Shown one piece after another: positions 59,492-62,564 of a stretch of 64,000 bases of DNA. Position numbers and translations under genes: made by a program. The stretch is taken from assembly GCA_023489335.1 (NCBI GenBank), contig JAMDCP010000018.1, forward strand, positions 1 through 64,000, in the 5' to 3' direction. The DNA is from Deltaproteobacteria bacterium (GTDB lineage: Bacteria > SZUA-79 > Acidulodesulfobacterales > Acidulodesulfobacteraceae). The stretch's first letter is position 1. Every line of letters starts with the position of its first letter. The notes below the pieces were generated by a model. The model worked only from the letters and a program-made list of their open reading frames with translations, did no database searches and was not told the origin of the DNA.

Positions 59492-60199
59492 ATGAAAATA
59501 CCCGTTTTATATTACCATAAAATAGATTTTCCAAAAAAAAATGCGGTATATAAAGGATTATATGTAACTCCAAAGCAGTTTAAAAGGCAGATGGCTTTAT
59601 TAAAAATCCTGGGTTATAACGCCATAAAACCGGAAGACCTTATATCCTTCATTAAAGGGCACAAACCCGGCGTAAAAAAACCTGTATTAATTACCTTTGA
59701 CGACGGATACGAAAATAACTTTATCAATGCTTATCCTGTATTAAAAAATTTAGGCTTTACCTCTTTAATTTTTATCAGCACGGGATTTATCGGAAAAAAA
59801 AAATCAGCGCCTGATGAGAGAGAAAGCGTTCCAGAAGATTTTTTGGATAAAAACGAGATTAAGTCAATGTATAATGGCGGTTTTTCGATAGGCTCGCACG
59901 GCATTAGCCATTATTATCTCGATAGATTAGACGAAAGCGTTTTGATAGACGAATTAACCTTTTCAAAGGCATATCTGGAAAACCTGCTAAAAACAGACAT
60001 AAATTTTTTTTCATATCCGTTCGGGGCTTATAATGATAATGTCATGAAGGCCGTTAAAAAGGCGGGTTATTCGGGGGCATTTACGACGGCAAAAGGCAAG
60101 GTCGGCGTCGGGGATAACCCTTATGAATTAAAAAGGATAGCCGTTAACGGGTATAACACCATTTTTAATTTTCTTTATAAAATAATTTTCTTGCAATAA
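59492..60199 (+). CDS. Polysaccharide deacetylase (NodB-like)
   Basis: The 235-residue protein has the NodB homology domain: VLYYHKIDFPKK at the N terminus, the metal motif VLITFDDGYENNFINAYPVL, then SIGSHGISHYYLDRLDES (His pair) and FFSYPFGAYNDNV. It probably removes N-acetyl groups from surface or cell-wall glycans. No signal peptide is clear, so its location is uncertain. It lies 16 bp after argJ. Confidence 0.9.
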   Translation: MKIPVLYYHKIDFPKKNAVYKGLYVTPKQFKRQMALLKILGYNAIKPEDLISFIKGHKPGVKKPVLITFDDGYENNFINAYPVLKNLGFTSLIFISTGFIGKKKSAPDERESVPEDFLDKNEIKSMYNGGFSIGSHGISHYYLDRLDESVLIDELTFSKAYLENLLKTDINFFSYPFGAYNDNVMKAVKKAGYSGAFTTAKGKVGVGDNPYELKRIAVNGYNTIFNFLYKIIFLQ

Positions 60200-60274
60200 A
60201 AGTGTAAAAATGATAAAAAGTTAAATTTAGTATTTGTAATGTTCGCTTTTTATTTTAAATTAACCAAAATCGTA

Positions 60275-60334
60275 CCCGTCTATCAATAAGTGCTTATTTA
60301 GCTTATAGGCGGGGAGAAAAAAGCACTTAAGGAG
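60275..60334 (+). ncRNA. rpsB: Predicted H-type pseudoknot leader of rpsB
   Basis: Stem 1 pairs CCCGTCTAT (60275-60283) with ATAGGCGGG (60305-60313), one G-U pair. Its loop contains AAGTGCTT (60288-60295), which is perfectly complementary to AAGCACTT (60321-60328). The latter directly abuts the AAGGAG Shine-Dalgarno (60329-60334), 5 bp before the start. The resulting pseudoknot would control access to the ribosome-binding site, as known for S2 leaders that are repressed by ribosomal protein S2. Confidence 0.75.
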
Positions 60335-60339
60335 AATAA

Positions 60340-61158
60340 ATGCCATTTAATGTTACAATTAAGCAGTTATTAGAAGCAGGGGTTCATTTCGGACATCAAA
60401 CGAAAAGATGGAATCCAAAGATGAGGCCTTATATTTATGGGTCAAGAAACGGGATACACATAGTTGACCTTCAAAGAACTATTTCTTATTTTCAATCGGC
60501 GTACAATAAGTTGCTGGAAATCGCGCAAGACGGAGGGGTAATTCTTTTTATAGGCACAAAAAAGCAGGCAAGTCCTATCGTTGCGGAAGAAGCAAAAAGG
60601 TGTAATATGCCTTATGTCAATGAGAGGTGGCTTGGGGGCATGCTTACTAACTTTGCCACTATTAGGCTTTCCATTCAAAGATTAAAAGAACTCGAAGGGC
60701 TAAAAGAATCGGAAGAATTTTCTAAATTTACAAAAAAAGAAATGTCAAAAATGGATAAAGAGATTTTAAAACTTCAAAAAGTCCTTAACGGGATTAGAGA
60801 TGTCGAGAAAATTCCCGATGCCGTTTTTATTGTCGATATTCACCATGAGATAATTGCGGCTAAGGAGGCAAAGAGGCTTGATGTCCCAATCATAGGCGTT
60901 GCGGATACAAACGCCGACCCCGCGCTTGCCGACTATTTAATTCCGGGAAACGACGATGCCATCAGGGCGATTAAACTAATTTTGAGCACAATGGCGGATG
61001 CGGTCATAGAAGGGAGAAAAATTTACGAAGAAAGATTTAGCAAAGGGAAAACAACCGAAAATATGGCAGAGGGTATCGGCGAAGAAACATTTGCGGCACC
61101 CGTCGCCGCAGAAGAAGGCTCAAATTCCGGCAATGAAGATGCGGATATCTCCATATAA
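60340..61158 (+). CDS. rpsB: 30S ribosomal protein S2
   Basis: The 272-residue protein has the S2 signature GVHFGHQTKRWNPKMRPYIY, then RWLGGMLTNFATI and IPIIGVADTNADPALADYLI-like spacing. The C-terminal tail (about residues 245-272) is acidic and longer than E. coli S2. The start is preceded by AAGGAG inside a predicted pseudoknot leader. It opens the conserved rpsB-tsf-pyrH-frr-uppS-cdsA operon. Confidence 0.97.
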   Translation: MPFNVTIKQLLEAGVHFGHQTKRWNPKMRPYIYGSRNGIHIVDLQRTISYFQSAYNKLLEIAQDGGVILFIGTKKQASPIVAEEAKRCNMPYVNERWLGGMLTNFATIRLSIQRLKELEGLKESEEFSKFTKKEMSKMDKEILKLQKVLNGIRDVEKIPDAVFIVDIHHEIIAAKEAKRLDVPIIGVADTNADPALADYLIPGNDDAIRAIKLILSTMADAVIEGRKIYEERFSKGKTTENMAEGIGEETFAAPVAAEEGSNSGNEDADISI

Positions 61159-61231: not shown

Positions 61232-61837
61232 TTGGAAAAATCATCAAACATCGATGCAGGGTTGGTTAAAAATTTGCGCTCCATGACAGGCGCCGGTTTT
61301 GTCGATTGCAAAAACGCCCTTGTCGAAACTAAAGGAGATATGGATAAAGCGGTTGAGATATTGAGAAAAAAGGGGCTTGCAAAGGCGCAAAAAAAGGCTA
61401 ACAGGGAGGCAAAAGAGGGGTTAATTTACTCTTATATTCATGCGGGAGGAAGAATCGGCGTTTTATTGGAAATTAATTGCGAGACCGATTTTGTCGCAAG
61501 AACTTCCGAATTTCAAGAGCTTGCTAAAAACATTGCAATGCATATAGCCGCTTCAAACCCTCTTTATATAAAAAGGGAACTTGTTTCACCCGAGCTCGTA
61601 TCGAAGGAAAGGGAGATATATAAAGAACAACTTGCCGCAATGGATAAGCCGCAAGCCGTTAAAGAAAAGATAGTGGACGGCAAGCTCGAAAAATATTATC
61701 AGGATGTTTGCCTATTGGAGCAGCCGTTTATAAAAGACCCTTCAAAAAACATTGCCGAAATAATAGATAACGAAGTGGCAAAATTGGGAGAAAATATAGT
61801 TTTAAAAAGATTTGTAAGATACCAGTTAGGGGAATGA
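61232..61837 (+). CDS. tsf: Elongation factor Ts
   Basis: The 201-residue nucleotide-exchange factor for EF-Tu starts with a TTG at 61232, preceded by AAGGGGG. Motifs: [20 protein letters not shown], the N-terminal helix pair, and [20 protein letters not shown]. It is short compared with E. coli EF-Ts (283 residues), because the coiled coil and second core copy are reduced, as in many bacterial short forms. Confidence 0.95.
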
Positions 61838-61838
61838 A

Positions 61839-62564
61839 GTGGGCGAATTCCGGTACAAAAGAATATTGCTTAAAGTTAGCGGAGAGGCTTTAGCCGGCGG
61901 GAATAAGTGCGGTATCGATCCCGCCGTTATCAATTTCGTTTCCGATGAAATAAAATCGGTGGTAGATATGGGTATAGAGGTTGCTATCGTTATCGGCGGG
62001 GGCAACATATTCAGGGGTTTTGGCTCGTCGTCGAAAGGCCTTGGCATAGAGAGGTCCTCCGCCGATTATATGGGCATGCTTGCAACGGTTATAAATGCGC
62101 TGGCATTACAGTCAAGTTTAGAAGATAAAGGGGTTATATCAAGGGTTCAGACGGCTATTGCCATGCAGCAGGTCGCAGAACCTTATATCAGGCGAAGGGC
62201 TTTAAGGCATTTGGAAAAAAAGAGGGTTGTCATATTTGCCGCTGGAACCGGAAACCCTTATTTTACGACAGATACCGCCGCTTCTCTCAGGGCGATGGAA
62301 ATACATGCCGATGTGATACTTAAAGCAACCAGAATAGATGGAGTTTATAGCGACGATCCGCTTTTAAATAAAGATGCGATAAAATATAATAAACTTTCAT
62401 ACATAGATGTATTAAACAAAAATTTAAAGGTAATGGATTCCACATCAATTTCCATGTGTATGGATAATATGCTTCCGATAGTAGTTTTCAATCTGTTGAT
62501 TCCCGGTAATTTATTAAAGGTTGTTCAGGGTGAACCTATCGGAACTATAATCACAAATCCTTAA
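61839..62564 (+). CDS. pyrH: UMP kinase
   Basis: The 241-residue kinase makes UDP from UMP. The GTG start follows the tsf stop by one base, with AGGGGA upstream, so translation is coupled. Motifs: [43 protein letters not shown] and [20 protein letters not shown]. Length matches the family. Part of the rpsB operon. Confidence 0.97.

Follow-up and report, generated by a model that had tools for sequence, protein, structure and literature searches.

The ribosome-binding site of rpsB in the DNA analysed here (the window, a stretch of 64,000 nucleotides) is directly preceded by an H-type pseudoknot that occurs before rpsB in every leader compared from the family. This element probably serves the autoregulation of the rpsB-tsf operon from its 5' leader, as a diverged, streamlined form of the rpsB motif. 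The earlier note had proposed a pseudoknot at this site with S2 autoregulation as its likely role, and the proposal is well supported by conservation, covariation and an architecture that is that of the rpsB motif.

The 3' part of the window contains secA, argJ, a polysaccharide-deacetylase-like gene, rpsB, tsf, pyrH, frr and uppS. The names come from reading the translations, except for rpsB, which was identified with the PF00318 profile. The deacetylase-like gene ends at 60199, with 140 bases from there to rpsB, and tsf and pyrH (61232 to 62564) are likely to be downstream members of the rpsB operon. The features of the region are as follows.

60190 to 60219, forward strand: promoter-like box CTTGCAATAA-N10-ATGATAAAAA, with conserved spacing in relatives
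60266 to 60274, forward strand: 5' flank AAAAUCGUA; CGUA is invariant across the family alignment
60275 to 60283, forward strand: 5' arm of P1, CCCGUCUAU; changes on both sides in 7 of 9 pairs, 95% of cells paired
60284 to 60286, forward strand: loop L1, 3 nt (1-5 nt in relatives)
60287 to 60295, forward strand: 5' arm of the pseudoknot, UAAGUGCUU; core GYGCUU in 28 of 28 leaders
60296 to 60304, forward strand: loop L2, 9 nt (9-86 nt in relatives), the site of P3 in the known motif
60305 to 60313, forward strand: 3' arm of P1, AUAGGCGGG; covariation
60314 to 60320, forward strand: loop L3, GAGAAAA, counterpart of GAGGNNNA in the known motif; GAGAA in all relatives
60321 to 60329, forward strand: 3' arm of the pseudoknot, AAGCACUUA; 94.4% of cells paired
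60329 to 60334, forward strand: Shine-Dalgarno (SD) sequence AAGGAG, directly 3' of the knot
60340 to 61158, forward strand: rpsB, ribosomal protein S2, 272 aa (PF00318, E 2.1e-94, 314.5 bits)
61232 to 61837, forward strand: tsf, TTG start, from the list of open reading frames and named from its translation
61839 to 62564, forward strand: pyrH, from the same list and likewise named from its translation

Read from the sequence, P1 pairs 60275-60283 with 60305-60313 through nine base pairs, one of them U-G, exactly as the earlier note had placed it. The loop segment AAGUGCUU (60288-60295) forms eight perfect pairs with AAGCACUU (60321-60328), also as claimed, and U60287-A60329 adds a ninth, so that the full knot runs from 60287-60295 to 60321-60329. 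The two helices interlock as an H-type pseudoknot with an L1 of 3 nt (CAA), an L2 of 9 nt and an L3 of 7 nt. The abutment on AAGGAG was confirmed: the 3' arm ends on 60329-60334, and the rpsB ATG (60340) follows five bases further on. None of the SD guanines is paired by the knot, which thus abuts the SD without hiding it. In the relatives the SD also lies close 3' of the knot, with a short insert in two leaders (L019 and L020).

Such a fold is seldom produced by chance. When dinucleotide shuffling of the 78-nt leader was repeated 20,000 times, knots with a first stem of at least 9 and a second of at least 8 base pairs appeared in 6 of the products. The rpsB leader also scored highest for an H-type pseudoknot among the upstream regions of the window's 65 open reading frames that have 120 codons or more. 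Nested-only folding of the leader was unremarkable (z -1.36), and the signal therefore lies in the knot and its conservation.

We compared the window leader with those of 27 relatives spanning its genus and family. P1 and the knot helix are present before rpsB in all 28 leaders, with the common layout CGUA, P1, a loop with GYGCUU, P1', GAGAA, AAGCRC and SD; P1 is interrupted or shorter in a few of them, for example L005, L019 and L021. Across the family leaders the knot has 6-9 bp and L3 is 6-7 nt long, while the length of L2 varies freely from 9 to 86 nt. In two leaders of genus g2 (L022 and L023), L2 has expanded to an AT-rich, repeat-like stretch of 63-86 nt, and P1 and the knot are intact.

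Covariation statistics were calculated on the 20 distinct rows of the alignment, with 500 shuffles and with slid-partner controls. Standard pairs filled 94.7% of the pair cells compared with 85.9% in shuffles, nine pairs showed changes on both sides, and the covariation score was 0.352 against 0.168 in shuffles and at most 0.168 in the slid controls, where the signal was lost. Four of the five measures exceeded all 500 shuffles and the fifth exceeded 498. Compensatory change is strong in P1, where seven of the nine pairs have changed on both sides. When the changes were followed on the rpsB tree, the basal pair of P1 alternates between C-G and U-A, and its fifth pair (9-27) passes through C-G, U-G, G-C and U-A in 10 state changes with no breaks. 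The edges of the knot covary as well: pair 18-41 appears as U-A, U-G and C-G, with 5 changes on the rpsB tree, and is always paired. In genus g1, L019 and L021 the outer three pairs of the knot vary and are in some cases broken. Five of the nine knot pairs never vary, and the support for the knot is near-invariance more than covariation. The check in relatives that the earlier note had called for thus found the compensatory changes.

The same note had also drawn a competing local hairpin, AATAA with TTATT, as an alternative fold. This hairpin can indeed be drawn in the window species (60285-60289 with 60295-60299), and to that extent the claim stands, although RNAfold favours UAAGU/AUUUA over it. 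As a conserved feature it does not stand: several relatives have no counterpart, the loop having a minimum free energy of 0.0 in L003, L004 and L011, and the relatives of genus g6 have a different, weak hairpin (0 to -4.5 kcal/mol). We therefore rejected it as a conserved switch and regard AATAA/TTATT as specific to the window species. In four g6 leaders (L007, L008, L012 and L029), with the loop GUGCUUGAAGUGCUUUGC or a similar one, the knot arm itself can be drawn as a hairpin, GYGCU-UGA-AGYGY, and a second copy of GUGCUU could pair with the 3' arm of the knot. These are possible alternative states for which the evidence is weak; in the hairpin that covers the knot arm, most of the variable positions show C/U exchanges facing G, and the hairpin is for this reason too weak to claim.

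Upstream of the element, TTGCAA or TTGCAT and ATGATA[AG]A recur at a fixed spacing in 26 of the 28 leaders, and one of the exceptions has no upstream DNA. A simple sigma-70 scan made no call on the corresponding box of the window (60190-60219). This box is likely to be the promoter of rpsB, its -10 element being unusual, and probably marks the start of the rpsB transcript; the leader would then be roughly 110-120 nt long, a length that depends on the inferred start point. The box, CTTGCAA(T/A)...ATGATAAA, overlaps the stop codon of the gene that precedes rpsB.

The rpsB motif described by Meyer in 2009 consists of P1, optional P2 and P3, and a pseudoknot between J2-3 and the 3' extension of P1; it lies upstream of rpsB in many phyla and has been tied to S2 autoregulation in E. 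coli (PMC2704228). We found the published motif in the rpsB leaders of Geobacter, Desulfobacterota, Rokubacteria, Clostridia and E. coli, where the order of its parts is AAUUC[AG]CAC, a P1 starting with CG, GGU, P1', GAGG, an A-rich stretch and ACC. The element described here likewise stands before rpsB, with a long P1, a knot in which the loop pairs with the 3' extension of P1, and an A-rich stretch, and in many members of the motif the knot is near the SD as it is here. The gap between P1 and the 3' arm of the knot is 7 nt in the window and mostly 7-10 nt in the motif, and in both it starts with GAG. The 5' flank resembles AAUUC[AG]CAC, and AAxUCGxAC and GAG are common to both. Set against the conserved motif sequences CRCACG, GGU, GGAGG and ACC, the flanks show a resemblance, whereas GYGCUU/AAGCRC, in many cases lengthened to 9 bp, takes the place of the GGU/ACC knot and the 5' CACACG reads CGUACC. 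Conserved P2 and P3 were not found in the family leaders; where P3 would lie, they have 9-86 nt of inserted sequence that is unconserved or AT-rich.

Individual known leaders have the same layout. The E. coli leader combines P1 CACGUAUC/GAUACGUG with an L3 of 8 nt (GAGGCAUA) and a 7-bp knot, UUGGGGU/ACCCCAA, and comparable knots are UUCGGU/ACCGAA in Rokubacteria and CCUGGGU/ACCCAGG in Desulfoplanes. The short GGU/ACC knots of the known members have a median per-sequence p of 0.57, which is no surprise for a helix of 3 bp. Those that stand out individually are confined to some knots of Rokubacteria, Desulfoplanes and, marginally, E. coli. In t44 RNA (RF00127), which is the E. coli rpsB leader, the SD is further from the knot than it is here. 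The pseudoknots of the rpsO (S15) leaders in mycobacteria and E. coli also exert autogenous ribosomal-protein control near the start site (PMC10931766), although with a different gene and protein they provide an analogy only.

Model searches gave a divided answer. A covariance model built from nine Geobacter leaders (R1), which holds no sequence from the family of the window, recovered 49 leaders across phyla, including that of E. coli at 17.4 bits. The same model picked the leader in 17 of the 27 family loci (best E 0.0004) and scored the window leader at 19.8 bits (E 0.012), higher than E. coli's own, though the SD and the A-rich stretch may account for part of these matches. Scored with a 12-nt profile of the known-motif flank, 14 of 28 leaders had the P1 flank as the best of about 171 positions; with the first P1 base removed the profile was weaker, giving rank 1 in 7 of 28 and a place in the top three in 16 of 28. 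A second model (R2), built from the 49 known-motif leaders recovered by R1, found none of the family leaders; since R2 was unvalidated on held-out known members, we take this miss as a limit on the claim and not as proof of a separate origin. The Rfam t44 model (gathering score 44 bits) also found no family leader, and had no match in the region of the window at E values up to 10. It scores the E. coli leader at 83.5 bits. Because R1 and the flank profile match while R2 and t44 miss, we class the element as a variant of the rpsB motif and not as a member of t44.

Of the 30 genomes from the phylum, 24 carry the strict element pattern, with a single match in each except for one extra in G026; the pattern was absent from about 356 sampled genomes of other families. 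Within the sampled set, in which the 29 relatives of the window genome represent the sole family from its phylum, the element is confined to this lineage. That restriction to one family, together with the failure of R2 and Rfam t44, the absence of P2 and P3 and the different knot sequence, could suggest a convergent S2 leader, similar in job and shape to the rpsB motif and of its own origin. We consider this unlikely, given that the position and the L3 length are those of the rpsB motif, that the AAxUCGxAC and GAG flanks recur in both, and that R1 was derived independently and still matches. It is correspondingly doubtful that the GYGCUU/AAGCRC core in place of GGU/ACC defines a separate, convergent class of S2-binding pseudoknot confined to the phylum.

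A constitutive element of translation or mRNA stability that is not governed by S2, such as a landing site for S1 or the 30S subunit or a form of 5' protection, would accord with a fold that stops at the SD and does not cover it, and pseudoknots can be high-affinity targets of bS1 (PMC10931766). The position before rpsB, and the S2 control in E. coli of the class of rpsB leader that it matches, make this reading somewhat less probable still than convergence. We give almost no credence to a small-molecule riboswitch placed before rpsB by chance: although preQ1-II has a similar stem and an SD-proximal pairing, its weak match (17.1 bits, E 2.1) is far under the gathering score of 47 and was set aside as noise, and the element precedes rpsB, never a metabolic gene, in every genome of the family. 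A match to mir-154 was also noise. Mimicry of 16S rRNA was considered as well and rejected; no likeness was found to the S2 sites in h26 and h35-37 of the family's own 16S, and the longest exact word that the window leader has in common with this 16S (8 nt) lies outside these helices. The lack of such a likeness counts against the autoregulatory reading.

The reading that we favour, an autoregulatory leader of the rpsB-motif type, allows a mechanism to be proposed. S2 of E. coli represses rpsB-tsf and needs bS1 for effective repression, with mechanistic details still open (PMC10931766); a bS1 homologue in the genome of the window scored 560 bits, slightly below the cut-off of 577. Homology to the rpsB motif is inferred, as are S2 as the ligand and a steric block as the mechanism. 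By analogy with E. coli, S2 in excess over free 30S subunits would bind the leader, there together with bS1, and lock the knot. The locked knot would present a stable fold where the 30S subunit must dock, at the adjoining SD. Translation of rpsB would then fall, and that of tsf would follow through coupling. As the SD guanines are left unpaired by the knot, repression would not come from sequestration; it would work sterically or by trapping.

For structural work on the recognition by S2 of its own mRNA, still a question even in E. coli, a leader of about 60 nt with one stem, one knot and a changed knot core would be a convenient minimal target. Such a leader also suggests that the motif can do without P2, P3 and GGU/ACC, but not without P1, the knot, GAG and the spacing. 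The comparison shows, too, that outside Gammaproteobacteria many rpsB leaders escape the Rfam model. Geobacter leaders score 30-32 bits with it, below the 44-bit cut-off, and scores of this kind leave such leaders unannotated. Five rpsB leaders from outside Gammaproteobacteria (L036, L038, L072, L092 and L095) reached 26-32 bits against the same cut-off, and the t44 family is typed as an sRNA even though it corresponds to the E. coli rpsB leader.
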